A stretch of DNA of 64,000 bases from Cellulosimicrobium terreum (GTDB lineage: Bacteria > Actinomycetota > Actinomycetes > Actinomycetales > Cellulomonadaceae): contig JACYFD010000001.1 of NCBI GenBank assembly GCA_014803435.1, positions 496,001 through 560,000 of the forward strand, in the 5' to 3' direction. This document shows positions 10,299 to 23,753 of this stretch, piece by piece (positions within the stretch are counted from its first letter, which is position 1; each line of letters opens with the position of its first letter). Both the position numbers and the translations under genes were made by a program. The notes under the pieces were generated by a model. It was not told the DNA's origin, did not search any database, and saw only the letters and a list, made by a program, of their open reading frames with translations.

Positions 10299-10354
10299 AT
10301 TCCAGGGTGCACCCGCCGCGACCCTCAGGTCAAGCGGTTTCTCGAAACTTGTTA

Positions 10355-10378
10355 CTGACCAGTCAGCCAGTATTGACA
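10355..10378 (+). promoter_or_regulatory. Promoter candidate for the peptide operon with TetR-like palindrome
   Basis: CTGAC-CA-GTCAG (10355-10366) is a small perfect inverted repeat of the kind TetR-family repressors bind. It is followed at once by TTGACA (10373-10378), a consensus -35 hexamer. The -10 region near 10396-10402 (AATCCT) is poor, which would fit a promoter needing an activator such as the SARP encoded in the operon. No TetR gene is present in the window. Confidence 0.4.
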
Positions 10379-10479
10379 TCGGTGGCCGCGGCCCGCAATC
10401 CTTGGGCGCGACGGAGCGGTCCGTGACCCGGATCCGTTTCATGTTCACGACGTGGTTGGAGCAGGGCCAAGGGGGGCTC

Positions 10480-11055
10480 ATGTCGTACCCATGGATCGTC
10501 GCGTGCCTCGTGGTCTCAGGCGTGTTCGCCGCCTCTGTCCACAGTGCGGTGCGGACGCCGGACAGCTGGACCGCGTTCGTCGGGTCGACGGCGTCGCTCG
10601 CTCGGCGTCGACGCCCTGCGGCGGGCCGCCTCGCGGTCGTGGTGGTCGTCGCCGAGTCGGCGGCAGCGCTCGCGCTGGCCGTGGTGGTGCTCGTGCGCGT
10701 CGCCGTCGACGAGCCCGCGGCGCCGGCGCTCGTCGGTCCGCTCGGTGCGGCGGCCGGGACGGGCGGCGCAGCTCTGCTGCTCGTCCTCGCCGTCGCGCTG
10801 CGCCGCGCGCAGCGCGACCGCCCGGGCACGGCCTGCCACTGCTTCGGCGCCGCGGACGAGGTGTCGGGCCGGCACGTCGTGCGCAACGTCCTCCTCGCGG
10901 TGCTCGCGCTGGTCGCTGCCGCCGGCCCGGCGACGTCGAGCCACCCCCACCCGGCCGGCGTGCTCCTGTGCTGCGTCGTCGCGGTCGTCGCCACCGAGGC
11001 GGTCCGCCGCCTGGACGACCTCTCCGCGCTGCTCGTCCCCGCGTCCCGTCCCTGA
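10480..11055 (+). CDS. MauE/DoxX-like redox-associated membrane protein
   Basis: 191 residues with about five membrane segments (2-22, 50-73, 90-108, 134-150, 158-175). A cytoplasm- or membrane-proximal CHCFG motif (C119, C121) follows the third segment, as in MauE-type proteins, which together with a thioredoxin-like partner help disulfide formation in exported proteins. ATG at 10480 is chosen over upstream starts because GGGGGG lies five bases before it and the first membrane helix starts at once. First gene of a seven-gene operon; the next gene encodes an anchored thioredoxin-fold protein, the usual partner. Confidence 0.8.
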   Translation: MSYPWIVACLVVSGVFAASVHSAVRTPDSWTAFVGSTASLARRRRPAAGRLAVVVVVAESAAALALAVVVLVRVAVDEPAAPALVGPLGAAAGTGGAALLLVLAVALRRAQRDRPGTACHCFGAADEVSGRHVVRNVLLAVLALVAAAGPATSSHPHPAGVLLCCVVAVVATEAVRRLDDLSALLVPASRP

Positions 11056-11071
11056 CCCGAGAGGCCTCACC

Positions 11072-11641
11072 GTGCCCGTGCTCACCGCCGCGGTCGTCGT
11101 CCTGACCGTCCTCGTCCTGCTCAACCTCGCCCTCACGGGCGCGGTGATCCGTCGGCTGCGCGTCGACGCCGCCGCGGCCGGTGGTCTGCGGGAGAGCGCC
11201 TCCGGCGTCGTGCCGACACCCCTGGACCTCCCCGTCGGTGCCGTCGTCCCGCCCTTCGCGGCCGCGGGGGAGGACGGCGAGATCCTCACGCGCGACGACC
11301 TCCTCGGCGCGCGCACGCTCGTCGCGTTCTCGTCGACGACGTGCGCGGCGTGCGTCACGCAGGCACCCGGGCTCGTCGCGGAGTCCGAGCTGCTCGCCGG
11401 CCAGGGGATCGTGGTCGTCCCCGTCCTCGTCGGCGAGGACGACACCCACGACCTCGCCGCGAAGCTCCGGCCCGCCGGACCGCTGGTGCGCGAGCCCCAC
11501 GGCGGTCCGTGCAGCGCGGCGTTCGGCCTGCGCGGCACGCCGTCGTACGCCCTGGTCGGCCCCGACGCGCGGGTCCTTGCCGCCGGCCTCGTCCTGGCCG
11601 ACGTCGTGTCGGCGGGCGCCACCACGACCGCGACCCGCTGA
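11072..11641 (+). CDS. Membrane-anchored thioredoxin-like (TlpA-type) disulfide protein
   Basis: 189 residues: an N-terminal membrane anchor (about 4-25) followed by an extracytoplasmic thioredoxin fold with the active site STTCAACVTQ (C91 and C94) and the cis-proline loop GTPSY (P157). A third Cys lies in GGPCSAAF. GTG at 11072 is preceded by GAGAGG. It is 16 bases after the MauE-like gene, and its stop overlaps the next ATG by one base. It probably exchanges electrons with the MauE-like protein to make or reshuffle disulfides in an exported substrate; the four-Cys peptide encoded at the far end of the locus is the obvious candidate. Confidence 0.85.
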   Translation: MPVLTAAVVVLTVLVLLNLALTGAVIRRLRVDAAAAGGLRESASGVVPTPLDLPVGAVVPPFAAAGEDGEILTRDDLLGARTLVAFSSTTCAACVTQAPGLVAESELLAGQGIVVVPVLVGEDDTHDLAAKLRPAGPLVREPHGGPCSAAFGLRGTPSYALVGPDARVLAAGLVLADVVSAGATTTATR

Positions 11642-13611
11642 TGGGCGTACGCAACCGGGCCCGGCCGCGGGCGGCCGCGAGCGGCCGGCTCGGCGCGCTG
11701 GCCGTCGCGATGCGGCTCTACCACCGCGCGGCGCCCGCCGCCGTCGTGGCACGGGCCGTGACCGTCGCGCTGGCCGGCCTCGTCCCCGTCGCCGCGGCCT
11801 GGCTCACCAAGGCGCTGGTCGACGGGCTCGGCACTGGACTGACGACGCGGCTCGCCCTGCTCCTCGCCGTCGGCCTCGCCGTGACCGGGGCGCTCGGCGC
11901 GGTCCTCGCGCAGGTCGCGCGGTACCTCGACCAGGAGATCGGGCGACGCGTCAGCCTGCACATGCAGACGACGCTGTTCGGTGCCGTCGTCCGGCCGGCC
12001 GGGATCGCGCAGCTCGAGGACCCGGAGTATCACGACCGCCTGCAGCTCGCGCGGCTCGCCGGTGAGGCCGGGCCGATGATCCTCACGGCGGCCTTCGTCT
12101 CGGTCGTCCAGTCGCTGGTCACCGTGACCGCGTTCGCCGTGTCGCTGGCGGTCCTGTCGCCGCTCGCGGCGAGCCTCGTGCTGGCCTCGGCTGTGCCCGC
12201 CCTCGTGGCGCAGCTGCGGCTCGGCCGCCTCCGCAGCTCGACGACGGCGCTCAACAGCCCGCGGTCCCGTCGCCAGCTGTTCTACGCGACGCTCCTCACG
12301 GACGTGCGCACGGCCAAGGAGATCCGCCTCTTCGGCCTCGGCGAGCACTTCCGCGCCAAGATGCTCGACGAGGTCGGGTCGGTCCACGCCACCGAGCGGC
12401 ACGTCGACCGCGTCACGGTGCGGACCGAGACGCTGCTCGCGCTGCTCACCGCACTGGTCTCCGGCGCGGTCCTGCTCCACGCGGTCCTCCGGATCGCCGA
12501 CGGGTCGGGCAGCGTGGGCGACGTCGCCCTCCTCGTCGCCGCGCTCGGGGCGGTCCAGACAGCCGTGGCCGCCATCGTCGGGCAGGTCGGGGTGCTCGAC
12601 GAGGCGCTCGTCCTGCTCGGCCGGTACGTCGAGATCGTCGCTCCAGATCCCGGCTCGGAGCCTGGACCAGCGTCCGGCGCGGAGCCCGGCTCCGAGGTGG
12701 CGGGCACGGTGGCCGTGCGTCCCGCACACGCTTCGCCCATCGCACCCACCGGACCGGCCGCGCAACCGGCGGGCATCCGCTTCGAGAAGGTGTGGTTCCG
12801 GTACGCCGAGGACAGCCCGTGGGTCCTGCAGGACCTCGACCTCGAGATCCCCGTGGGCTCGCGCGTGGCGCTCGTCGGGGCGAACGGCGCGGGCAAGTCG
12901 ACGGTGGTCAAGCTGCTGTGCCGGCTCTACGAGCCGACCCGGGGCCGGGTCACCTGGGACGGCGTCGACGTCGCGACGATCGACCCCGCCGTCCTGCGTG
13001 CCCGCATCGCGACGGTCTTCCAGGACTTCGTCTGCTACGAGCTCACCGCGCGGGAGAACGTCGCGCTCGGTGACCTCGCACGCGCCGCGCAGCCGGGCGC
13101 CGTCGAGCACGCGGCGTCGGTCGCCGGCGTCGGCGGGGTCCTCGGCGCCCTGCCACGGGGATACGACACGATGCTCACCCGCATGTTCGCGGGCCTGGCA
13201 CCGGAGCCGGACGACGCGGACCCGCAGAACGGGACGCAGGACGACGGCGCGGGCGTCGTCCTCTCGGGCGGGCAGTGGCAACGGGTCGCGGTCGCGCGTG
13301 CGTTCCTGCGCGAGGACGCCGAGCTGCTCGTCCTCGACGAGCCGTCCTCGGGCCTGGACCCGCGCGCGGAGGCGGACCTGTACGCGACGCTGCGCGCCGT
13401 GGGCAGCGGCCGTGCGACGCTGCTCGTCGCGCACCGGCTCAGCACGGTGCGCGACGCCGACCGGATCGTCGTGCTGGCCGATGGCACGGTGCTCGAGAGC
13501 GGGGACCACGACGCCCTGATGGGGCTCGACGGCGAGTACGCCACACTCTTCCGGCTCCAGGCCGACGGGTACCAGGAGCGTGCGGCGGCCACGGCGGGAG
13601 GTGCGCCGTGA
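11641..13611 (+). CDS. ABC exporter, fused membrane and ATPase domains (peptide/lipid exporter type)
   Basis: 656 residues. Residues about 30-335 form a six-helix ABC exporter domain. A Pro/Ser/Ala linker (336-377) leads to the nucleotide-binding domain: Walker A GANGAGKST (413-421), signature LSGGQWQRVAVARAF (541-555), Walker B ELLVLDEP, and H-loop LLVAHRLSTV. It has no N-terminal C39 peptidase domain, so leader removal would need another enzyme; a signal-peptidase-like gene is in the operon. An acidic stretch (about 521-537, PEPDDADPQN...) is inserted just before the signature, where most exporters are compact. Works as a homodimer in related systems. ATG overlaps the previous stop (TGATG); the 3' end overlaps the next GTG. 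Confidence 0.9.
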   Translation: MGVRNRARPRAAASGRLGALAVAMRLYHRAAPAAVVARAVTVALAGLVPVAAAWLTKALVDGLGTGLTTRLALLLAVGLAVTGALGAVLAQVARYLDQEIGRRVSLHMQTTLFGAVVRPAGIAQLEDPEYHDRLQLARLAGEAGPMILTAAFVSVVQSLVTVTAFAVSLAVLSPLAASLVLASAVPALVAQLRLGRLRSSTTALNSPRSRRQLFYATLLTDVRTAKEIRLFGLGEHFRAKMLDEVGSVHATERHVDRVTVRTETLLALLTALVSGAVLLHAVLRIADGSGSVGDVALLVAALGAVQTAVAAIVGQVGVLDEALVLLGRYVEIVAPDPGSEPGPASGAEPGSEVAGTVAVRPAHASPIAPTGPAAQPAGIRFEKVWFRYAEDSPWVLQDLDLEIPVGSRVALVGANGAGKSTVVKLLCRLYEPTRGRVTWDGVDVATIDPAVLRARIATVFQDFVCYELTARENVALGDLARAAQPGAVEHAASVAGVGGVLGALPRGYDTMLTRMFAGLAPEPDDADPQNGTQDDGAGVVLSGGQWQRVAVARAFLREDAELLVLDEPSSGLDPRAEADLYATLRAVGSGRATLLVAHRLSTVRDADRIVVLADGTVLESGDHDALMGLDGEYATLFRLQADGYQERAAATAGGAP

Positions 13612-14360
13612 CCCTGGAGATCGACGTCCTCGGCCCGTTGCGCGCCCGCGTCGACGGCCGCGAGATGGCGCTCGGAGGGCCCGGCCGCCGGGCCCTGCTC
13701 GCCGCGCTCGTGCTCGGCAAGGGACGCGTCGTCACGACCAGCGCGATCGTGGACACGCTCTGGGTCGACGACCCGCCGGCGAGCGCCGTGACGAAGGTGC
13801 AGGGGCACGTGTCCGAGCTGCGCAAGGCGCTCGCGGCGGCCGGGCACGACGACCCCACCGCGGTCCTGGTGACCGCGGCGCCCGGGTACCTCCTGCGGCC
13901 CGGCGCCACGGCGACCGACCTGGCGCGGTTCGAGGCGGACGTGGTCGCGGCGCAGGCCGCCCGGCGCGCCGACGACCTGGTCGCTGCGGAGACGTTGCTC
14001 GCCGGGGCGCTCGAGCTGTGGCGGGGCCCGGCGCTCGCGGACGTGAGCGCCCCGACGTTGCGCGCCGTCGCCGGCGGTCTCGACGACCGGCGGCTGCGCG
14101 TCCTGGAGGACCACGCCGAGGTGAGCCTGGCGCTCGGTCGCTCGCGGGACGTGCTCGACGCGCTCGGGCCGCTCCTCGTGGCGCACCCCTTCCGCGACCG
14201 TCTGAACGAGCTGTTCATGGTCGCGCTCATCCGCACCGACCGGCCCTCCGAGGCCATCGCCACCTATCGCCGCTGCCGCGAGATGTACGGCCGCGAGCTC
14301 GGCATCGAGCCGAGCTCACGGCTGCGTCGTCTCGTGGCGTCGCTCGGCTACCCGTCGTAG
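13608..14360 (+). CDS. SARP-family transcriptional activator (OmpR-type wHTH plus BTAD)
   Basis: 250 residues. N-terminal winged helix (about 3-95, beginning EIDVLGPLRARVDGREM, with LLAALVLGKGRVVTT) followed by the bacterial transcriptional activator domain (about 100-245, including DPFRDRL-like AHPFRDRLNELFMVAL and LGIEPSSRLRRL). This is the AfsR/DnrI/RedD architecture that switches on biosynthesis of secondary metabolites, binding direct heptamer repeats near the -35 region. GTG at 13608 overlaps the preceding stop (GTGA). Its presence inside the operon supports the view that this locus makes a regulated small product. Confidence 0.88.
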   Translation: MTLEIDVLGPLRARVDGREMALGGPGRRALLAALVLGKGRVVTTSAIVDTLWVDDPPASAVTKVQGHVSELRKALAAAGHDDPTAVLVTAAPGYLLRPGATATDLARFEADVVAAQAARRADDLVAAETLLAGALELWRGPALADVSAPTLRAVAGGLDDRRLRVLEDHAEVSLALGRSRDVLDALGPLLVAHPFRDRLNELFMVALIRTDRPSEAIATYRRCREMYGRELGIEPSSRLRRLVASLGYPS

Positions 14361-14374
14361 AGAGGACCGGCAGC

Positions 14375-15130
14375 ATGCCGACCAGAGGATCCACGACGCG
14401 CCTCGTCACCCGGGCAGCTCGACCGGAGGCGTCGCCGGGTGCTGACGCCCCGCACGGCGCGCACGTCCGTCTCGAGCAGGTGGTCCGGTCGTTCCCGCTC
14501 GGGCAGCGCGACCGGCTCGTGGCCGTCGACCACGTCGACCTCGAGCTCGAGCCCGGTAGCATCACGGCCCTGACCGGTCCCTCGGGCTCGGGGAAGTCGA
14601 CCCTGCTGCACCTCGTGGGCGCGATCGAGCGTGCGGACTCCGGCTCGATCCAGGTCGACGGGGAGGAGCTCGTGGGTGCACCGCGCGGGCGCCTCACCCG
14701 GTATCGGCGGGGCGTCGGCTTCGTCTTCCAGCGCTTCCACCTGCTCCCGGCCCTGAGCGTCCTCGACAACGTCCTCGTGCCGCTGCTGCCGGAGCGGTCG
14801 CAGCGGGCCGGTGCGGTGGACCGGGCGCGCGAGCTGCTCGACGCCGTCGGGCTGGGCGGGCGCGAGGACGCGCTGCCCTCGGCACTGTCGGGAGGTCAGC
14901 AGCAGCGGGTGGCGATCGCGCGGGCGCTCGTCGTGCGGCCTCGGCTCCTCGTCGCGGACGAGCCCACCGGGAACCTGGACTCGCGGACGGGGCGCGCGGT
15001 CCTCGACCTGCTCCTCGGGCTGCGGGACACCCACCCGATGACGATCGTGCTGTCCACGCACGACCCGCTCCTGGCCGCCGAGTGCGAGCGCACCGTGCAC
15101 CTCCTCGACGGCCGGACGGCCGCGGCATGA
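14375..15130 (+). CDS. ABC transporter ATP-binding protein (LolD/MacB type)
   Basis: 251 residues. Walker A GPSGSGKST (about 75), Q-loop FVFQRFHLLPALSV, signature LSGGQQQRVAIARAL, Walker B LLVADEPTGNLDS, H-loop STHD. It has the LolD/MacB/FtsE-like profile that partners FtsX-type permeases, and such a permease is two genes downstream. ATG at 14375 has AGAGAGGA ten bases upstream. The stop overlaps the next start (ATGA). Likely the energy subunit of a mechanotransmission-type ABC system used for release of, or immunity to, the locus peptide. Confidence 0.9.
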   Translation: MPTRGSTTRLVTRAARPEASPGADAPHGAHVRLEQVVRSFPLGQRDRLVAVDHVDLELEPGSITALTGPSGSGKSTLLHLVGAIERADSGSIQVDGEELVGAPRGRLTRYRRGVGFVFQRFHLLPALSVLDNVLVPLLPERSQRAGAVDRARELLDAVGLGGREDALPSALSGGQQQRVAIARALVVRPRLLVADEPTGNLDSRTGRAVLDLLLGLRDTHPMTIVLSTHDPLLAAECERTVHLLDGRTAAA

Positions 15131-15600
15131 CCCCGCGCGGCGCGGTCGCGCTCGTATCCGTCGCGCTCGGGGTCCTCGCCGTCGGGGTCCTCGCCGTCGT
15201 AGCCCGCCGCCGCCTCCTGGTCGTGTCCGTCAGCGGCGCGAGCATGGGACCGGCCTACGGTCCGGGGACCCGCGTGCTGGTGGTGCGCGGGCGCCGTGCC
15301 CGCCCGGGGGACGTCGTCGTGCTCGACGGCGCGCTCGTCGCTCCCGTCCCGACCGACGTCCCGGACGAGGCGGGCGGCCTCGTCGTGAAGCGCGTCGCGG
15401 CGGGACCGGGCCACCCGGTGCCCGCCGAGGTGCTGGGCGTCGTCGGTGCGCGGTCGGGTGACGTCGTCCCGCCGGACAGCCTCGTCGTGCTGGGTGACGC
15501 ACCGGAGGCGAGCGTGGACTCGCGGCTCTGGGGCTTCGTCCCCGTCGACGCCGTGGTCGGCAGGGTCGCGACCGTGCTCGCGCCGGGGGCGGTGCAGTGA
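15127..15600 (+). CDS. Signal-peptidase-like protease (S26 family)
   Basis: 157 residues. N-terminal membrane anchor (about 6-26), then an extracytoplasmic S26 fold: catalytic Ser in VSGASMGP (S39), a basic residue in GGLVVKRVAAG (K88), and the conserved GDAPEASVDSRLWGFVP box (about 123-139). The Ser/Lys arrangement is as in type I signal peptidases. Because the exporter in this operon lacks its own leader peptidase, this enzyme is the best candidate for trimming the small peptide, whose leader ends in an AEA (A-x-A) site. Overlaps its neighbours on both sides (ATGA, GTGA). Confidence 0.85.
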   Translation: MTPRGAVALVSVALGVLAVGVLAVVARRRLLVVSVSGASMGPAYGPGTRVLVVRGRRARPGDVVVLDGALVAPVPTDVPDEAGGLVVKRVAAGPGHPVPAEVLGVVGARSGDVVPPDSLVVLGDAPEASVDSRLWGFVPVDAVVGRVATVLAPGAVQ

Positions 15601-18377
15601 TCTCGTTGGTGGTGTCCCAGCTCCGGCACGGGCTCGGGCGGGCGGTGGCGACCGTGCTGGCCGTGGCGGTCGCCGTCGCGAGCTTCGCCCTCCTCGCCTC
15701 GACCGCGGAGGTCTCCCGGCTGGAGGCGTCGGGCACCGTGGAGGCGAACGCGCGCCCGCTGTACGACATCCTCGTCCGGCCCGCGGACACGGTCGAGGCG
15801 GCTTCGGGGCTCGTCCGCGCTGACGACGTCGCCTCCGCGGTCGGTGGGATCACGGCCGCGCAGTGGGAGCAGGTCAGCACCCTTCCCGGCGTCGACGTCG
15901 CGGCGCCGCTCGCCACGGTCGGGTACGTGATGCAGCACGTCGCGGTACCTGTGGACCTGTCGTCCTACCTCGACCCGGACGCCGAGCGCCAGCTCCTGCG
16001 CCTACGACCGACCGTCGTCTCCGACCGCGGCACCACGACGGTGCCCGACGGCGACTCCTACCTCTACGCGACGACGCACCCGCTCGAGCTCGTCCCCGGT
16101 GAGCCGTGGGAGGCCGGGGTCGTGTACGAGGCGGGTGACGTACCGGCCGACCCCACGATCGTCGAGCACGACGCCGACGGGGCGCACGAGAACTGCGCGT
16201 GGGGGGACCGGACCGACCAGGACGTGGACAGGTTCGCGCCGCAGGACCGCGAGTCCTTCGCCTGCTGGTCGTCCGCCGGGTCGGTCGAGGGGGCGCCCGA
16301 CGCCCCGACCGCATGGGTCGGGGTCACGGTCCCGCTCCTCGTCGCCGCGGTCGACCCCGAGCAGGAGGCGGCGCTGGGCGGGCTCGACCGGTCGGTGGTG
16401 TCCGGCAGGTACCTCGGCGCGGGCGACGGGGCCACGCCCGGTGAGCTGCCGGTGCTCGCGGCGACCCGTGGCGGGCTCGACCAGCAGGTGTCGCTCGAGG
16501 TCCAGCGGCTGCCGGCGGACGCCGCGGCCACCGTGCTGTCGTCGCGCGTCGTGAGCTCCGCCCTCGACGTGCTCGACGCGTCCGCCTCGCACCAGGGGAC
16601 CGGGACCGAGCTCGGTCGGCTCGAGATCGACGCCGACGACGTCCACGCCCGGCTGCTCGAGACGCTCGGTGCGCCGCCCGGTCCGGGCGCGCCCCCGTGG
16701 CTCCTGGCGCCCTCGACGGTGGCCGGGCCGTCGGCGAGCACGCTCGTGGACGCCGTCCGCACCGTCGGGCCTGCGACGTCCGGCCCGGTCGACGTCACGG
16801 GGGACGAGTGGGGGTCCGCGTTCCGTGACGACCCGGCGCGGAACCCGGTCCCCGTCACGTCGGCCGACGTCGCGGCACGGGCGGTCGCCCGGTATGCGCC
16901 GCCGGACCCGGGCACGACCGTCACGCTGCGCGCCGTCGGCACGTTCGACCCCGCCCTCGTCGACTCCGGCCCGGAGCTCGCGACGCTCCCGTTCGAACCG
17001 TCCGCCCCGGTGGGTGCGATCGGTGCCGACGACGCGAGCCGGGCCGCGCTCGGCGACCGGCCGCTCCTGCCCGGGCCCGCGATCTCCGGCTGGGCCGGGC
17101 AGCGGCCGGCGCTCGTGACGTCGCTCGACGCCGTGGGGTCCCTCGCCGGGTACGTGCACGGCGACGACGCGCTCCCCGTCGAGTCCGCGGCACCCATCGC
17201 GTCGCTGCGCGTGCGTGTCGAGGGCGACGTCGGGCTCGACGACCGGTCCCAGGAGCGGGTGCGGGCGGTCGCGGACCGCATCCACGAGACGACCGGCCTG
17301 CACGTCGACCTGCTCGTGGGGTCGTCCACGACCCAGGTTCCGGCGCCGGTCCCCGCGGGCGCCTTCGGCCGGCCCGCGCTCGTCGTCGGCGACCCGCACC
17401 TGGAGAAGGACGTGGCGACCGCGATCGTCACCGCGGTCGACACGAAGAGCCTCGTCCTGGCGGTCCTCGTCCTCGTCGCGTGCGCGCTCGCGGTCGGGAA
17501 CGCGACGAGCTCGGCCGTCCGCGTCCGGTCCACCGAGCTCGCCGTCCTCGCCTGCGTCGGGTGGCCCCGCCGACGGCTGTTCGGGCTCGTCCTCCTGGAG
17601 ACGCTCGTCGTCAGCGGGGCGGCCGGCCTGGTCGGCGTGCTCGTCGCCGTGGTCGGCGCGCCGCTGCTCGGCGTCACCCTCGTGCCGTCGTTCGTCCTGC
17701 TCGCGGTGCCCGCGGCGATCGCGCTCGGCGCGGCGTCCGCGCTCGCACCGGCCTGGCGGGCGTCGCTCGCCGACCCCGGGTCCGCGACGCGGGTCCCCGT
17801 CACCCACGTCGGGCGGGCATGGTCACCGCGCCGGGTCACGACGCTCGCCCTCCTCAACGTGGCGCGCGCACCCGGACGCTCCCTCGTCGGGGCGCTCGCG
17901 CTCGCGCTCGGCGTCGGGTCCGTCGGTGTCCTCGCCGCGGTGTCCGTCGCGTTCCGCGGTGCCGTCACCGGGACGGTCCTCGGCGACGCGGTCACCCTGC
18001 AGGTCCGGGCGGCGGACTTCGTCGCCGCCGGTCTCGTGGCGCTGCTCGGCGCGGTGACCGTCGCGGACGTGCTCTACGTCGCGGTGCGCGAGCGCGCGGC
18101 GGAGCTCGCGCTGCTCGACGCGGTGGGGTGGCGCTCGGGGACGGTGGGCCGGATGGTCCTCGTCGAGGCGACCGCGGTCGGGGTCGTCGGGTCCCTCGTC
18201 GGGGCCGGCCTGGCGCTCGGGACCGCGGCGGTGCTCGCGGACGACGTGCCCGGCGCCGTCTGGGCCGCGGCGGTCGGCGCGGCGGTGGGCGGTGTCGTCC
18301 TCGCGCTGGTGGCCGCCTGGTGGCCGGTGCGGTCTCTGCGGCGGCTGCCGGTCGCGCGGCTGCTCGCCGCCGAGTGA
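15597..18377 (+). CDS. Large FtsX-type ABC permease
   Basis: 926 residues. An N-terminal membrane helix (about 12-30) is followed by a roughly 570-residue extracytoplasmic region. Then come two clusters of membrane helices (about 615-725 and 755-915) typical of two FtsX/MacB permease domains (for example LRVRSTELAVLACVG-like and VRERAAELALLDAVGW motifs before the helices). It pairs with the LolD-type ATPase encoded two genes upstream. In related loci such pairs export or confer resistance to peptides. GTG at 15597 overlaps the previous stop. Last gene of the operon; a strong hairpin follows at 18429-18459. Confidence 0.88.
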   Translation: MISLVVSQLRHGLGRAVATVLAVAVAVASFALLASTAEVSRLEASGTVEANARPLYDILVRPADTVEAASGLVRADDVASAVGGITAAQWEQVSTLPGVDVAAPLATVGYVMQHVAVPVDLSSYLDPDAERQLLRLRPTVVSDRGTTTVPDGDSYLYATTHPLELVPGEPWEAGVVYEAGDVPADPTIVEHDADGAHENCAWGDRTDQDVDRFAPQDRESFACWSSAGSVEGAPDAPTAWVGVTVPLLVAAVDPEQEAALGGLDRSVVSGRYLGAGDGATPGELPVLAATRGGLDQQVSLEVQRLPADAAATVLSSRVVSSALDVLDASASHQGTGTELGRLEIDADDVHARLLETLGAPPGPGAPPWLLAPSTVAGPSASTLVDAVRTVGPATSGPVDVTGDEWGSAFRDDPARNPVPVTSADVAARAVARYAPPDPGTTVTLRAVGTFDPALVDSGPELATLPFEPSAPVGAIGADDASRAALGDRPLLPGPAISGWAGQRPALVTSLDAVGSLAGYVHGDDALPVESAAPIASLRVRVEGDVGLDDRSQERVRAVADRIHETTGLHVDLLVGSSTTQVPAPVPAGAFGRPALVVGDPHLEKDVATAIVTAVDTKSLVLAVLVLVACALAVGNATSSAVRVRSTELAVLACVGWPRRRLFGLVLLETLVVSGAAGLVGVLVAVVGAPLLGVTLVPSFVLLAVPAAIALGAASALAPAWRASLADPGSATRVPVTHVGRAWSPRRVTTLALLNVARAPGRSLVGALALALGVGSVGVLAAVSVAFRGAVTGTVLGDAVTLQVRAADFVAAGLVALLGAVTVADVLYVAVRERAAELALLDAVGWRSGTVGRMVLVEATAVGVVGSLVGAGLALGTAAVLADDVPGAVWAAAVGAAVGGVVLALVAAWWPVRSLRRLPVARLLAAE

Positions 18378-18380
18378 GCG

Positions 18381-18422
18381 CGAGCGACCGGGTAGCTGAG
18401 AGAGCGCCGAGCGACCGGGTAG
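18381..18422 (+). repeat. Two 15-bp direct repeats after the permease gene
   Basis: CGAGCGACCGGGTAG occurs at 18381-18395 and 18408-18422 (27-base spacing), between the permease stop and the terminator hairpin. Role unknown; possibly a remnant of local duplication. Confidence 0.6.
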
Positions 18423-18428
18423 ACGCGC

Positions 18429-18459
18429 GCTGCCCCGGACCGTGACGGTCCGGGGCAGC
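18429..18459. terminator. Bidirectional hairpin terminator between operon and peptide gene
   Basis: GCTGCCCCGGACCGT and ACGGTCCGGGGCAGC are perfect 15-base arms around a single G, giving a stem of about 13 bp in practice. It lies between the convergent permease gene and peptide gene and can stop transcription from both. Confidence 0.75.
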
Positions 18460-18505
18460 GGCGGGACGGACTCCGCCGGCTCAGCGTGGGTGCCGAGCCG
18501 CGGGC

Positions 18506-18673
18506 TCAGAGCCAGTTGCAGTACGTCGTGTTGATCGGGATGATGCGGCAGCACTTCTCGACGCGCCCGCCCGAGAAGTAGTTGTACCAGCAGTAGTAGT
18601 CCTTGGCCTCGGCCCGGGCCGAGGGGAGCAGGGCGCCGAGGAGCCGGTCTCCGAGCATGTGCATGCGCTTCAT
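18506..18673 (-). CDS. Small Cys- and aromatic-rich exported peptide precursor (candidate)
   Basis: A 55-codon gene. The leader MKRMHMLGDRLLGALLPSAR is basic then amphipathic/hydrophobic and ends with ARAEA, an A-x-A signal-peptidase site (cut after residue 21 or 23). The remaining 32 residues begin KDYYCWYNYF and end NTTYCNWL, with Cys at 28, 41, 42 and 52, five Tyr and two Trp. ATG at 18673 has GGAAGGA seven to eight bases upstream, so translation is well supported. It faces an operon with thioredoxin-like, MauE-like, S26-protease and two ABC systems, exactly what a disulfide-bearing exported peptide needs. The four Cys could form two disulfides. It matches no bacteriocin or lantipeptide class that I can name. 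It could also be a signalling peptide sensed by the SARP-controlled locus. Confidence 0.72.
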   Translation of the reverse strand: MKRMHMLGDRLLGALLPSARAEAKDYYCWYNYFSGGRVEKCCRIIPINTTYCNWL

Positions 18674-18694
18674 CGCGTGTCCTTCCGTGGGTCG

Positions 18695-18733
18695 TCGTGC
18701 AGCGCGACGACAGGAGGTCGTCGTGCTGCACGA
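18695..18733 (-). terminator. Hairpin in the leader of the peptide gene / after the GH3 gene
   Basis: TCGTGCAGCGCGACGAC (18695-18711) and GTCGTCGTGCTGCACGA (18717-18733) form a 17-bp stem with one mismatch and an AGGAG loop. It lies 38 bases after the GH3 stop and 22 bases before the peptide ATG. It may end GH3 transcription or control readthrough into the peptide gene; no TANNNT box is seen between the two genes. Confidence 0.55.
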
Positions 18734-18770
18734 GCGTTCCGCGCCGTCCTGACGGTCCGCTGCCGATCCG

Positions 18771-19988
18771 CTACCCGTCCGCCCCCGCGCCGAGCCGCTC
18801 CTTCGCGGCCAGGACCCGCACGACCGAGGCGTCCACCCGGGCGGCGAACGCGGGGTCCGTCGTCGCGCGCTCGACGAGCGCGTCGGCCATCGCGGGCACG
18901 ACGCCCGGGTCGGCGGAGGCGAGGACCATGTCGCCGCCCGCCTCGATCGTCAGGACGGCCCGCTGCGCGGGGGACCAGTCCTGCACCTGGGCCGCGGCCG
19001 AGACGTCGTCGGTGATCACGACCCCGTCGAACCCGAGGTCGCCGCGCAGCATGCCGTCGACGACGACGGGCGAGAACGCGGCCGGGTGGTCGGGGTCGAT
19101 CTTCGTGTAGACGGCCGTCGACGTCATCACGAACGCCGCACCGGCGTCGATCCCGGACGCGAACACGGCCACGGACTCGTCGTCGCGCGTCGTGACGTCG
19201 TCGGTGACGCCCGCGTCCGTGTCGGTGTTCTCCGCGACGCGGCCGAGCCCCGGGAAGTGCTTGATCGTCACGTCGACCCCGGACGCCTCCATCCCGGCGG
19301 AGAACGCGTTCGCGTGCGACGTGACGTCCTCGGGGGTGAAGCCGTAGCTGCGCCCGAAGTACCCGATCGGCGGGTTCTGCGCCGCCGACCCCGCCGGCAC
19401 GAGGTCCATCACCGGGGCCAGGTTGAGGTTCACGCCCGCGGACGCGAGCTCGGAGCCCCAGGTCGTCGCGGCGTCGCGAAGGTCGTCCGGGCCGAGGCCC
19501 GCCTGGTCCACCGCCGCGGGGATGTCCGAGAACCCCGGTCCGCGCAGCACCTGGACGTTGCCGCCCTCCTGGTCGGTCGCGACGAAGAGGGGGGCGCCGT
19601 GCGTCGTGCCGTCCGAGACGAGGTCCGTGAACGACGCCGTGAGGTCCGCGGTCGCGCCCGTCCCCGCCTGCGACCGCCCCGCGAGGAACACGTTCCCGAC
19701 GTGGTGCTCCGTCACGGCGTCGTAGCTCACCTGCCGGGGGTCCGCGACGTCGACCCCGACCATGAGGAGCTGGCCGACCTTCTGCTCGAGCGTCCACCCG
19801 GCGAGCGGTTCGGCAGGCGGGGTGATGGGCGCGGGCGGGGTGGTCGTGCCCGACGGCGCGGGCTCGCCCGGGCTCGACGGCGCCGGTCCCGGGTCGGGGC
19901 GGTCCACGAACCAGACCACGGCGGCCACCGCCACCACGGTGGTCACGACGGCGAGGACGATCCAGACGATGCGGGCACGAGACGACAC
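18771..19988 (-). CDS. GH3 family hydrolase (NagZ-like beta-N-acetylhexosaminidase), membrane-anchored
   Basis: 405 residues. An N-terminal anchor or signal (about 5-26, IVWIVLAVVTTVVAVAAVVWF) is followed by a Pro/Ser/Thr stalk (28-53) and a GH3 TIM barrel (about 57-395). Family signatures: DQEGGNVQ, IKHFPGLGR, FDGVVITDDVSA (nucleophile Asp), AGGDMVLAS. Typical NagZ enzymes have KHFPGHG plus a nearby Asp-Ser-His loop supplying the acid/base; here it reads KHFPGLGRVAENTDTDAG, so the His is missing and the catalysis may differ. Likely acts outside the membrane on cell-wall or chitin fragments. GTG at 19988 is chosen because GGAGG lies six bases upstream. Confidence 0.85.
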   Translation of the reverse strand: MSSRARIVWIVLAVVTTVVAVAAVVWFVDRPDPGPAPSSPGEPAPSGTTTPPAPITPPAEPLAGWTLEQKVGQLLMVGVDVADPRQVSYDAVTEHHVGNVFLAGRSQAGTGATADLTASFTDLVSDGTTHGAPLFVATDQEGGNVQVLRGPGFSDIPAAVDQAGLGPDDLRDAATTWGSELASAGVNLNLAPVMDLVPAGSAAQNPPIGYFGRSYGFTPEDVTSHANAFSAGMEASGVDVTIKHFPGLGRVAENTDTDAGVTDDVTTRDDESVAVFASGIDAGAAFVMTSTAVYTKIDPDHPAAFSPVVVDGMLRGDLGFDGVVITDDVSAAAQVQDWSPAQRAVLTIEAGGDMVLASADPGVVPAMADALVERATTDPAFAARVDASVVRVLAAKERLGAGADG

Positions 19989-20135
19989 GGACACCTCCGT
20001 CTGACACGGTAGTCGAGCGCGCGTCGTGACCGGTCCCACAGCGTGGGTCGCGTCATGATGCAACCGGGGGCGCGTCCCATCTCCACCGAGCGGCACCACG
20101 ACCTGGCGTCGCGACCGTCGAACGAGAAGAGCACG

Positions 20136-23100
20136 ATGCACCCCCGATCGATCACGCGCACCCGGGCCCTCGACCGCAGCCGGCGGGTCGTTGCCGCCCT
20201 CGTCGCCTCGATGCTCGCCCTCGTCGGCGCCGTGGTCCTCGTGACCGGCCCGCAGGCGCGTCCGGCGTCCGCCGCCATCGGGTTCTGCCCGGACCCGGAC
20301 GACATCCCGGACGTCGGCCCGCTGCCACCGCTCTTCACGGACCAGAACGTCGCGGTCTACTCGGGCGGGGACTACCACGCGACGGCGAGCGCCGCGGAGT
20401 CGGAAGGCCTGCTCGTGGTCGCGGGCGACGCGCTCATCGACGCCCCGGGGAACTTCAGCGTCGGCAGCGTCGGCGCCGGGTCGCAGATCACCCCGCCGGA
20501 CGGCGATGTGATGCTCGCCGTCGCCGGCGGGCTCGAGATCGCGGCCGGGACGAGCGTCACGGTCGGATCGACGCTCCCCAGCGGCGGTGCGGTGGACGTG
20601 GGGGACACGGTCACCGGCGGCGGCACGCTGTCGACGGCCGGCACGACGCCCGGCGCCGACGCCCCCGTCACCGAGAGCATGGGCGCCGAGGCGATCGCGG
20701 ACTGGGCCGACTTCGGCACGGTCATCTCCGACACGTCGGCGACGATCGGCGGCTGGTCGACCACCGCCCCCGCCGTCGTCGCGGGCAGCCAGGTCACGTT
20801 CACCGGCTCGGGCACGGACGACCCGCAGGTCTTCTCCGTCGACGCCGCGGCGCTCGCGGGCGTGACGGAGATCGTCTTCGCGGACATCCCGGACGGGACC
20901 GCGATCGCGATCAACGTCACCGGGGACGCGCCCGTGGACGTCAGCCCGAACTACTGGGAGGGCAACGGGGAGCCGTTCATCAACGGGCTCGCGACCCCCG
21001 GCTTCGGCAGCTGGGCCTCCCGCATCCTGTGGAACTTCGAGGACACCACGGACCTGGCGCTCGGCCGTGCTGACCAGTTCCTCGGCACGATCCTCGCGCC
21101 CCAGGCCGACGCGACGTTCATGACCAGCACCAACGGTCGCGTGCTGATCGGCGGGAACCTCACGTTCGGGGACGAGTCGGTCCCCGGCGGGCTCGAGATG
21201 CACAACTACCCGTGGATCGGCCCCGGTCCGTTCGACTGCATCCCGTCGTCGAGCTTCGGCGTGCAGAAGACCGTGACGGGCGAGGCGTCGGCGGACGTGC
21301 CGGCCGACACGACGTTCGACGTCGACTACACGTACGAGGAGCCGGACGGCACGACCGGCGGTGACACGCTGACGGTCCCCATCAGCGGCGAGCTCGTCTA
21401 CGGCCCCGACCTGCCGGTGGGCACGGTCGTGACGATCAGCGAGACGGACCTCCCGGACGTCCCCGGTGTCGAGTGGGGCACGCCCGTGATCCAGGTGGAC
21501 GGGGAGCCGCTGGGCGACCCGGTGCAGTTCACGATCGCCGAGGACCAGACCGTCACGGTCACGGTGGTCAACACCGCGAACGGAGGTGGCGAGGTCGTGG
21601 TCGGGGGGTTCACGGTCGCCAAGGCCGTGACCGGTGACGCCGCCGGGCTGGTCCCGGACGACACAGAGTTCGCGGTCGACTGGACCGCGACCGTCCCGGA
21701 CGGGGTCGAGTTCGACGGCGAGACGTCGGGCACGCTGACGGTCCTGGCCGACGGGACCGTGGTGGACGGCCCGGACGACCTTCCGGTCGGCACCACGGTC
21801 ACGCTCACCGAGCAGCAGCCGTTGCCCGAGGTCGACGGCGTCGTCTGGGGCGAGCCCTCGTTCAGCCCGGCGTCCCCGATCACGGTCGTCGAGGGCGCCT
21901 CGGGCGTCGCGGTCACGCTCACCAACACCGCGGACGCGGTCGTCGGGGGGTTCACGGTCGCCAAGTCCGTGACCGGTGACGCCGCCGGGCTGGTCCCGGA
22001 CGACACAGAGTTCGCGGTCGACTGGACCGCGAGCGTCCCGGACGGGGTCGACTACGACGGCGAGACGTCGGGCACGCTGACGGTCCTGGCCGACGGGACC
22101 GTGGTGGACGGCCCGGACGACCTTCCGGTCGGCACGACGGTCACGCTTACCGAGCGGCAGCCGTTGCCCGAGGTCGACGGCGTGGTCTGGGGGACCCCGA
22201 CGATCGACCCTGCGTCACCGATCACGATCGTCGAGGGGGCGACGGGCGTCGAGGTGACGCTCACCAACACGGCGGACGCGGAGGAGGAGATCGGCGGGTT
22301 CTCGCTGAGCAAGGCCATGACGGGAGGCGCGTCGCGCGCCGTGCCCGTCGACGCGGCCTTCGATGTCGAGTGGGCGGCCGAGCTCCCGGACGGCGCGGAG
22401 TACGACGGGCCGACGTCGGGCACCCTCACCGTGCTCGCGGACGGGACCGTCGTGGACGGGCCGCAGGACCTCCCCGAGGCCACGGTCGTGACGTTCGTCG
22501 AGGTCGAGCCCCTGCCCGAGGTCGACGGCGTCGACTGGGGAACCCCCGAGTTCTCGCCCACCTCCGTCACGATCGGGACGGGTGACACGAGCGCAGGCGT
22601 CGTCCTGACGAACACGGCCGACGCCCAGGTGGGTGGCTTCGCGCTCGCCAAGTCCGTCACGGGCGGCACCGCCGACCTCGTCCCGGGCGGCACCGAGTTC
22701 CAGGTCGAGTGGACCGCGGAGGTCCCCGACGTCTTCACGTACGACGGCGCGACGACCGGCACGCTGACGGTCCTGGCCGACGGGACCGTCGTCGACGGCC
22801 CGCAGGACCTGCCGGTCGGCACGGTCGTGACGTTCACGGAGGTGAACCTGCCGGACGTCGACGGCGTGGTGTGGGGCGCGCCGACCTTCTCGCCGGGGTC
22901 CGTGACGATCGGCGAGGACGAGAGCACGCTCGTCACGCTCACCAACACGACGCAGGACGCGCTCGCGACCGGCGGCTTCTCCGCCGCCAAGGAGGTGACC
23001 GGCGACCGGGCCGACCTGGTGGCCCCGGACACCGTCTTCACGGTCGCGTACTCGTACGAGCTGGAGGGCGTCCTGGTCGGCGGTTCCCTGGAGGTCCCGG

Positions 23101-23753
23101 CGGACGGCACCGTCGTCGACGGGCCGCAGAACCTGCCGGTCGGCACCGTCGTGTCGTACACGGAGGCGGACCTGCCGCCGGTCGACGGCGTCGCCTGGGG
23201 CACGCCGTCGTTCAGCCCCGCGACCGTCACGGTCGGGGAGGACGAGAACACGCTCGTCACGGTCACCAACACGGCGGACCAGGGGGTCGGCGGGTTCGCC
23301 GTCGCGAAGGACGTGGTCGGTGACGCGGCGGACGACGTGCCGGGGGACACCGAGCTCACCGCGACCTGGTCGGCGGCCGTGCCGGACGGCGCGACCTACG
23401 CGGGCGCGACGTCGGGCCGGCTCACGCTGCTCGCCGACGGGACGGTCGTCGAGGGTCCGCAGGACCTGCCCGTCGGGACCGCGGTCACCATCGCCGAGGT
23501 CGACCTGCCCGAGGTCGACGGCGTCGAGTGGGGCACCCCCGTCCTCACCGTCGACGGCGAGGAGGTCGCGGTCGTGACCATCGCGGCCGGTGGCCCTGTG
23601 CTCGTGACGCTCACCAACACGGCGTCCGACGACGGCGGACCGCTCGCCACGACCGGGACCGACGCCGCGCTCGCGGCAGGGACCGGCGTGCTGCTGATCC
23701 TCACCGGTGCCGGGCTGGTCCTGATCCGGGCCCACCGCCGTCGTACCGCCTGA
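20136..23753 (+). CDS. Wall-anchored choice-of-anchor A protein with seven DUF5979 repeats
   Basis: 1205 residues. A signal peptide (about 15-46, ending RPASA) is followed by a choice-of-anchor A domain (about 50-360; AVYSGGDYHATASAAESEG, LGTILAPQADATFMTS, GRVLIGGNLTFG). Then come seven repeats of about 105-115 residues of DUF5979 type, each opening G(F)xxxKxVTG and ending with VTLTNTAD. The C-terminus is LATTGTD, a hydrophobic helix and HRRRTA: an LAxTG-type sorting signal used by actinobacterial class E sortases. Repeats two and three are almost identical in DNA (342-base period). Probably a surface stalk or adhesin. ATG at 20136 suits the signal peptide; an ATG at 20043 would add 31 residues. 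Confidence 0.88.
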   Translation: MHPRSITRTRALDRSRRVVAALVASMLALVGAVVLVTGPQARPASAAIGFCPDPDDIPDVGPLPPLFTDQNVAVYSGGDYHATASAAESEGLLVVAGDALIDAPGNFSVGSVGAGSQITPPDGDVMLAVAGGLEIAAGTSVTVGSTLPSGGAVDVGDTVTGGGTLSTAGTTPGADAPVTESMGAEAIADWADFGTVISDTSATIGGWSTTAPAVVAGSQVTFTGSGTDDPQVFSVDAAALAGVTEIVFADIPDGTAIAINVTGDAPVDVSPNYWEGNGEPFINGLATPGFGSWASRILWNFEDTTDLALGRADQFLGTILAPQADATFMTSTNGRVLIGGNLTFGDESVPGGLEMHNYPWIGPGPFDCIPSSSFGVQKTVTGEASADVPADTTFDVDYTYEEPDGTTGGDTLTVPISGELVYGPDLPVGTVVTISETDLPDVPGVEWGTPVIQVDGEPLGDPVQFTIAEDQTVTVTVVNTANGGGEVVVGGFTVAKAVTGDAAGLVPDDTEFAVDWTATVPDGVEFDGETSGTLTVLADGTVVDGPDDLPVGTTVTLTEQQPLPEVDGVVWGEPSFSPASPITVVEGASGVAVTLTNTADAVVGGFTVAKSVTGDAAGLVPDDTEFAVDWTASVPDGVDYDGETSGTLTVLADGTVVDGPDDLPVGTTVTLTERQPLPEVDGVVWGTPTIDPASPITIVEGATGVEVTLTNTADAEEEIGGFSLSKAMTGGASRAVPVDAAFDVEWAAELPDGAEYDGPTSGTLTVLADGTVVDGPQDLPEATVVTFVEVEPLPEVDGVDWGTPEFSPTSVTIGTGDTSAGVVLTNTADAQVGGFALAKSVTGGTADLVPGGTEFQVEWTAEVPDVFTYDGATTGTLTVLADGTVVDGPQDLPVGTVVTFTEVNLPDVDGVVWGAPTFSPGSVTIGEDESTLVTLTNTTQDALATGGFSAAKEVTGDRADLVAPDTVFTVAYSYELEGVLVGGSLEVPADGTVVDGPQNLPVGTVVSYTEADLPPVDGVAWGTPSFSPATVTVGEDENTLVTVTNTADQGVGGFAVAKDVVGDAADDVPGDTELTATWSAAVPDGATYAGATSGRLTLLADGTVVEGPQDLPVGTAVTIAEVDLPEVDGVEWGTPVLTVDGEEVAVVTIAAGGPVLVTLTNTASDDGGPLATTGTDAALAAGTGVLLILTGAGLVLIRAHRRRTA
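21609..22292 (+). repeat. Two near-identical 342-bp tandem DUF5979 repeats
   Basis: TTCACGGTCGCCAAG starts at 21609 and again at 21951. The following bases stay almost identical for most of the unit (for example CTGGTCCCGGACGACACAGA in both), while the other five repeats are much more diverged. This indicates a recent duplication or gene conversion. Confidence 0.85.

Follow-up and report, generated by a model that had tools for sequence, protein, structure and literature searches.

Bacteriocins of the C39 double-glycine type have an ATP-binding cassette (ABC) exporter dedicated to a short-leader peptide, and lactococcin 972 has an export/immunity pair, a LolD-type ATPase with a large permease, encoded near its small secreted peptide. 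Both arrangements have a counterpart in the locus described here, which lies in a 64,000-nucleotide stretch of the Cellulosimicrobium terreum genome (GenBank assembly GCA_014803435.1, contig JACYFD010000001.1, positions 496,001 to 560,000; this whole stretch is called the window below) and consists of a seven-gene operon facing a gene for a 55-residue peptide. In contrast to the C39 systems, Pfam reports no C39 domain on the exporter, as the original prediction from the sequence had anticipated, and the peptide lacks a GG site; an S26 protease would stand in for the C39 peptidase. The module and the leader also differ from those of lactococcin 972, and the LolD-type ATPase scores 160.3 bits against L_ocin_972_ABC (TIGR03608), below the cut-off of 254.85. 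The methylamine dehydrogenase maturation pair MauE/MauD, like the window, combines MauE with a thioredoxin-like partner; in the window, however, the cargo is a small peptide, the other mau genes are not in the operon (Pfam), and the NCBIfam MauD model gives no match to the thioredoxin-like protein at E ≤ 1.

The class I lasso peptides siamycin, sviceucin, humidimycin and MS-271 resemble the window in having a DoxX-family and thioredoxin pair, disulfides and an actinomycete cluster, so far as described in parts of two reports (PMC7168211, PMC9266682). They are cyclized by B and C enzymes, and no lasso cyclase or B protein was matched by Pfam among the eight proteins of the locus. In 2020, decRiPPter yielded three mauE-containing candidate families of ribosomally synthesized and post-translationally modified peptides in Streptomyces, in which a MauE homolog, a transporter, a peptidase and a regulator stand beside a cysteine-rich precursor, as in the window (PMC7794033). 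Only Streptomyces was mined there, and the precursors have at least eight cysteines whereas the window peptide has four. In the section of that paper on the mauE families, MauE is suggested to modify the precursor and is speculated to form disulfides, one family also has MauD, and S. viridosporus T7A is named among the mauE genomes; a shared leader, an S26 protease or an even-cysteine rule does not figure in that section. We take these families to be of the same kind as the window cassette, comparing them by description; two of the 80 loci analyzed below come from S. viridosporus NRRL 2414. The locus was thus too readily called undescribed in the original prediction, since mauE candidates had been listed, whereas for the wider class that label holds in the literature searched (open-licence papers); in one paper that came up (PMC13192320), "MauE" is the name of an author. 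The class is one predicted before and uncharacterized, which is here unified and much enlarged as disulfide-only exported peptides.

We consider it very probable, from comparative sequence evidence, that the window holds a self-contained cluster for a small peptide that is switched on by a SARP regulator, modified by disulfides only, exported by the ABC protein and trimmed by the S26 enzyme. That this peptide belongs to one large, unnamed actinobacterial class appears somewhat less certain, yet still rather likely. Such a class, scattered through soil actinobacteria, would share a gap-free leader and a module of MauE, thioredoxin, C39-less ABC exporter and S26 protease, with disulfides as the sole modification, cores free to diversify (4 to 12 cysteines, always an even number) and SARP-type phased repeats switching many of the peptide genes.

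Companion genes, leader and cysteine parity

At least 594 stretches in named genomes matched an alignment of S26 proteins, and the best 80 of 210 confirmed loci were analyzed. A leader-type peptide is present in 69 of these 80 loci, spread over 25 named actinomycete genera that include Streptomyces, Embleya, Micromonospora, Nonomuraea, Actinomadura, Nocardia, Streptosporangium, Catellatospora, Kribbella, Nocardiopsis, Umezawaea and Asanoa; leader-type reading frames near MauE, S26 and SARP genes of other actinobacteria, which the original prediction had proposed to look for, do therefore occur. The S26 protease was counted in 79 loci, the ABC exporter in 67, the thioredoxin in 66, MauE in 57 and SARP in 26, and all five core parts occur together in 52. 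Among the 67 loci that have the exporter, 64 encode a leader-type cysteine peptide, and the other three (L075, L093, L121) are contig-end stretches of 3.4, 5.9 and 10.6 kb. When open reading frames (ORFs) of the 80 loci were clustered, the conserved groups were S26, ABC, thioredoxin, MauE and SARP-like. Further large groups (in 72, 59, 54 and 23 loci) are mostly antisense over core genes (166/187, 72/75, 87/93 and 29/47 unassigned ORFs, respectively). Beyond these, the first genuine group is a short-chain dehydrogenase, found in only 8 of the 80 loci, and thus no tailoring enzyme is widely shared among the conserved gene groups.

The window precursor reads MKRMHMLGDRLLGALLPSARAEA-KDYYCWYNYFSGGRVEKCCRIIPINTTYCNWL, the dash marking the predicted cut site. 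The leader profile of the class is gap-free and 16 columns long ([GAST]DRLLxxLVPxxxAxA; match threshold, score 12). Its seeds were a second regular-expression list of 61 peptides in 56 loci, one of which is spurious (profile score 0.3) and from which two minus-strand ORFs with odd cysteine counts (L074, 5; L133, 7), overlying opposite-strand genes, had been dropped. In 1.06 Mb of loci the profile finds 74 peptides with at least four cysteines, against none in one order-2 shuffle; without the cysteine filter, there are 80 matches against two. Because the profile was trained on the same loci, a hold-out test was made with 30 Streptomycetaceae leaders as the training set: 55 other loci gave 62 matches, 53 of them with at least four cysteines (all even), in 50 of the 55 loci. 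The window peptide is the single match of this Streptomycetaceae-only profile in the 64-kb window (28.5 against the threshold of 12). For 87 of the 94 peptides collected, the leader is 23 or 24 residues long, and the leaders contain no cysteine. The longest hydrophobic run is at most three (two to three residues) in 83 of 94, and the best 12-residue hydropathy value averages 0.79; a Sec-like hydrophobic h-region was not found in the leaders as judged by run lengths and hydropathy, no signal-peptide predictor having been run. Among paralog pairs within a locus, core divergence exceeds leader divergence in 10 of 11, and nine loci encode two or three different cores.

The number of cysteines is even (4, 6, 8, 10 or 12) in all 94 collected peptides with at least four cysteines, and in all 63 peptide clusters at 60% identity. 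By comparison, all short ORFs with at least four cysteines in the same loci comprise 691 even and 399 odd cases, the true peptides included. Profile matches with fewer than four cysteines (six in the 80 loci, three in other loci) were dropped before this count. A first regular-expression scan had given 53 matches in 50 of the 80 loci with four odd counts; in three (L079, L125, L141) a cysteine within the matched leader end had gone uncounted, and the fourth (L098, three cysteines) is a second, probably spurious ORF. Eight or more cysteines are present in 43 of the 74 peptides of the 80 loci. If every cysteine were paired in a disulfide, an even number would be expected. The CxxC motif is present in 66 of 66 thioredoxin relatives tested in the 80 loci, and C-x-CFG in 54 of 54 MauE relatives tested, which makes oxidation the likeliest role of the pair, as judged from their families together with the even-cysteine rule. 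The disulfide-bonded, exported peptide of the original prediction thus gains comparative support from its companion genes in the 80 loci and from cysteine parity.

In an AlphaFold2 model of the window peptide (nine alignment rows), the core forms three strands with a predicted local distance difference test score (pLDDT) of 91-93, the leader is a helix at low confidence, and the mean pLDDT is 73. A CW...CC...C pattern is common to ten aligned peptides, which were chosen because they have it. Foldseek with this model found no solved structure at E ≤ 0.001. For 56 aligned peptide members, NCBIfam and a PDB profile search gave no match, Pfam DUF325 matched one (E 4e-4), and PHROGs gave one weak match in one.

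Layout and patchy occurrence of the locus

All eight ORFs were confirmed, and the seven genes on the + strand are tightly packed, with junctions from 4-bp overlaps up to a 16-bp gap. The original prediction had described seven close-packed genes and a facing small-peptide gene, with which ORF coordinates, Pfam and the Shine-Dalgarno sequence agree. The features are as follows.

10372..18788, no strand: inserted block, comprising the whole operon and the peptide gene (empty site in genome G065)
10480..11055, + strand: MauE-like membrane protein with C-x-CFG from residue 119 (Pfam MauE, E 8.6e-10)
11072..11641, + strand: membrane-anchored thioredoxin-like protein with CAAC from residue 91 (AhpC-TSA 25.9, just under the cut-off of 26)
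11641..13611, + strand: ABC exporter, permease and ATPase (Pfam ABC_tran above cut-off; ABC_membrane 24.3 against a cut-off of 28)
13608..14360, + strand: small SARP regulator (Pfam BTAD, E 1.9e-34; Trans_reg_C, E 1.3e-8)
14375..15130, + strand: LolD/MacB-type ATPase, accessory (Pfam ABC_tran; NCBIfam LolD the best model, below cut-off)
15127..15600, + strand: S26 peptidase with Ser39/Lys88 dyad and KRVAAGPGHPVP box (Pfam Peptidase_S26, E 6.4e-16; alignment of relatives)
15597..18377, + strand: FtsX-type permease, accessory (Pfam FtsX, two stretches, above cut-off)
18428..18460, intergenic, where the FtsX and peptide genes converge: perfect inverted repeat of two 16-nt arms separated by 1 nt
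18506..18673, − strand: precursor peptide gene, 55 residues
18509..18604, − strand: core KDYYCWYNYFSGGRVEKCCRIIPINTTYCNWL with four cysteines (CW...CC...C pattern; three-stranded sheet in the model)
18605..18673, − strand: leader MKRMHMLGDRLLGALLPSARAEA, 23 residues, ending AEA (profile score 32.3; hold-out profile 28.5)
18681..18686, − strand: Shine-Dalgarno GGAAGG, 7 bases 5' of the peptide ATG (identical in genomes G007 and G049)
18733..18738, − strand: AACGCT, resembling a -10 hexamer, 8 bp downstream of the third heptamer
18743..18775, − strand: three 11-bp direct repeats, predicted SARP operator (published SARP spacing rule)

The product of 13608..14360 combines an OmpR-type DNA-binding domain with BTAD (Pfam), as SARP regulators do, and the inverted repeat is likely a two-way terminator. 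PADLOC gave only generic ATPase and TPR matches. Near the inserted block, the large protein encoded at 20043-23753 contains seven stretches of DUF5979 together with an adhesive domain that is ice-binding-like.

The peptide was found at E < 0.01 in 4 of 200 family genomes, namely its own and three others here called G007, G049 and G020 (93%, 78% and 38% identity to the window peptide, respectively, the last with the four cysteines kept); 46 other family genomes match only at E 0.05 to 1. These four are also the genomes whose FtsX relative reaches about 50% identity or higher, and within the genus the peptide is present in 3 of 17. The entire layout is as in the window in G007. In G049 the layout from exporter to peptide is retained, and the MauE and thioredoxin DNA matches run across the contig start. 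G020, from another genus, has MauE, thioredoxin, ABC, SARP and S26 genes with a facing peptide, and its LolD-FtsX pair lies on another contig; a weak peptide-like match near that pair gives no leader peptide on translation. In a further candidate, G150, the FtsX match is only partial (36%), and the 12 kb retrieved contain no leader peptide. Genome G065 (L147) matches the window as far as 10371 and again from 18789, with 13 bp between the two flanks, so the 8.4-kb block of operon and peptide gene was gained or lost as one. The original assignment of the peptide to the operon is thus borne out by conservation, the two being kept in G007, G049 and G020 and absent jointly in G065. The end of a palindrome-like site, TTACTGACCAGTCAGCCAGT (window 10352-10371), coincides with the left edge of the block. 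This site also occurs at the empty site of G065, and a flanking gene may use it as an operator.

The LolD-FtsX pair, which the original prediction counted with the locus, is present in the window operon but is not part of the core. Relatives of both proteins stand beside the module in only one of the 80 loci, that of Asanoa hainanensis, and in G020 they are on another contig; they also occur without the module in genome G233 as well as on that G020 contig. In the Asanoa hainanensis locus (L122:4300-11870), peptide, thioredoxin, ABC, S26, MauE, FtsX and LolD genes lie in one row. Since the coupling is found in two different families, a link of this accessory pair to the peptide is likely, with immunity or self-protection as the natural guess.

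A search of 396 phylum genomes with the peptide profile gave, apart from the match in the genome of the window itself, a pair of matches in genome G872, where three tandem peptides lie between S26-SARP and MauE-thioredoxin-ABC; a G872 peptide as query gave weak matches only. In this 8.7-Mb genome the three (L053:9441-10033) have six cysteines each, with leaders kept and cores diverged. Another candidate of the phylum search, G610, had no module and no leader match. Another genome scan gave matches in 11 genomes, three strong and eight weak (E 2e-4 to 0.009); the prevalence of three strong matches in 376 genomes is a lower bound because 17 candidates per genome were scored. In a plasmid collection, the window peptide gave three weak matches (Nonomuraea gerenzanensis, Rhizobium, Stanieria), and that in Nonomuraea gerenzanensis is genuine, judged by its neighbouring genes. 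The exporter as query matched 31 plasmid records, and the profile found a leader peptide in all ten of the regions examined; in the five annotated regions, the peptide is labelled "hypothetical protein" and precedes a MauE or thioredoxin gene. Streptomyces plasmid copies (L059, L062, L063, L065) have transposase or integrase genes in their flanks, which fits patchy spread, and one of them (L065:4994-5527, Streptomyces sp. NBC_01727) has a second redoxin gene just before the peptide gene.

Predicted mechanism and alternative explanations

Upstream of the window peptide gene lie the repeats GGTAGCGGATC-GGCAGCGGACC-GTCAGGACGGC in 11-bp phasing. The spacing rule for SARP operators, as given in portions of two papers, fits such repeats (PMC4393881, PMC5930380), and we predict that they are the operator. 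A similar arrangement of repeats and -10-like element occurs in G007, G049 and G020. With a repeat-score threshold of 17, which like the -10 layout pattern was set after inspecting the data, 11-bp triple repeats are found upstream of 19 of the 94 peptides, among them those of the window, G049 and G020, compared with 0-3 at spacings of 7-10 and 12-15. Control windows reach 17 in 8 of 854 cases at spacing 11, against 43 and 41 of 854 at spacings 9 and 12, which is coding-DNA-like. The score is reached in 12 of 36 cases with a SARP gene nearby versus 7 of 58 without.

The window S26 protein has the features of signal peptidase I, with the Ser39/Lys88 dyad and 56.5 bits against TIGR02227 (cut-off 47). 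The Ser-Met box is present in 78 of 79 S26 relatives, and a hydrophobic segment precedes the Ser box in 68 of 78. A KRxxAxxGxPVP box, seen in 12 of 12 sequences of the first alignment, was discarded as a diagnostic mark, being exact in only 39 of 79 relatives. The leader departs from ordinary signal peptides, and both the cleavage after A-x-A by the S26 enzyme and the side of the membrane on which it would occur are therefore put forward conditionally.

Taken together, SARP would bind the 11-bp-phased repeats and switch the peptide gene on. The 23-residue amphipathic leader may mark the 55-residue precursor as module cargo, and the peptidase-less ABC exporter would carry it across the membrane. 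MauE and the thioredoxin-like protein would then oxidize the four cysteines to two disulfides, and the Ser/Lys S26 enzyme would remove the leader after A-x-A, giving a product of about 32 residues, predicted as a three-stranded sheet. For a cut after residue 23, the computed monoisotopic mass of this core is 3966.78 Da when oxidized and 3970.81 Da when reduced. LolD-FtsX would act as an accessory transporter, most likely in self-protection.

Several observations weigh against this mechanism or against the proposed class. The repeat score of G007 is 15, and 75 of the 94 peptide upstreams fall below 17. No clear hydrophobic segment precedes the Ser box in 10 of 78 S26 proteins, so some leader cleavage could be cytoplasmic. 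The exporter was not found at threshold in 13 of the 80 loci, five of which have the peptide, and the shortfall of MauE (57/80) and thioredoxin (66/80) is due partly to contig ends and partly to absence or divergence. False matches of the leader profile amount to 9 of 62 in the hold-out (0-1 cysteines) and 6 of 80 with the full profile (0, 0, 0, 0, 1 and 2 cysteines). Of the 18 peptide codons that differ between the window and G049, 12 carry nonsynonymous changes, and purifying selection on the peptide is therefore not plain. In L065, a plasmid relative, the thioredoxin motif reads CGPT instead of CxxC. For class I lasso peptides, part of one report describes the DoxX and thioredoxin pair as dispensable for disulfides, with loss of mslE or mslF only lowering yield and loss of sviF affecting release (PMC9266682).

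Among the alternatives, the one that fares best, though we regard it as unlikely, is that the S26 enzyme removes the leader while the precursor is still inside the cell and that the exporter recognizes the core. Leaders of nickel superoxide dismutase are cleaved by an S26 enzyme inside the cell. The window S26 scores 41.5 bits against the corresponding model (sod_Ni_protease, TIGR02754; cut-off 63.25), and three arginines follow its membrane segment, which together with the S26 relatives lacking a clear segment would suit a cytoplasmic cut. The hydrophobic segment of the great majority argues otherwise, and the leader is the conserved element among the cargos, which suggests that export needs it.

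The peptide could also be a secreted signal (pheromone) and not a toxin, with LolD-FtsX as a sensor-linked transporter. With SARP encoded by the operon and repeats lying upstream of the peptide gene, a feedback loop would be feasible, but no sensor is among the widely conserved gene groups of the 80 loci, and the greater divergence of cores than of leaders and the nine multi-core loci fit weapons better. Antagonism of neighbours is thus held to be the most likely role and signalling a less likely one, a shade more doubtful than the intracellular cut.

Thioredoxin-like proteins can reduce as well as oxidize, and even cysteine numbers suit metal sites too, so the peptide might instead bind metal, as a metallophore or in metal handling, with MauE and thioredoxin keeping its thiols reduced. 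This is improbable: the number and spacing of cysteines vary widely over the 63 clusters whereas metal sites usually keep their spacing, and the 80 loci contain no further widely conserved gene group. A reading in which the peptide ORF is not a gene at all and the operon serves unrelated redox and transport functions can point to the short length and opposite strand of that ORF but is hardly credible, as reading frame, leader and cysteines are kept in four genomes, 94 such peptides were collected, and peptide and operon are present or absent jointly.

Disulfide-rich miniproteins are prized as stable scaffolds, and few bacterial sources of them exist. If the proposed class of exported disulfide peptides is real, its module would serve as a general platform on which disulfide-rich miniproteins of very different kinds are secreted and folded. 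With the leader profile and the S26 anchor, the class can be searched for directly, and the SARP switch, as predicted, offers a handle for turning on silent clusters. One leader carrying very different cysteine-rich cores through one module would give both a natural peptide library and a production tool.

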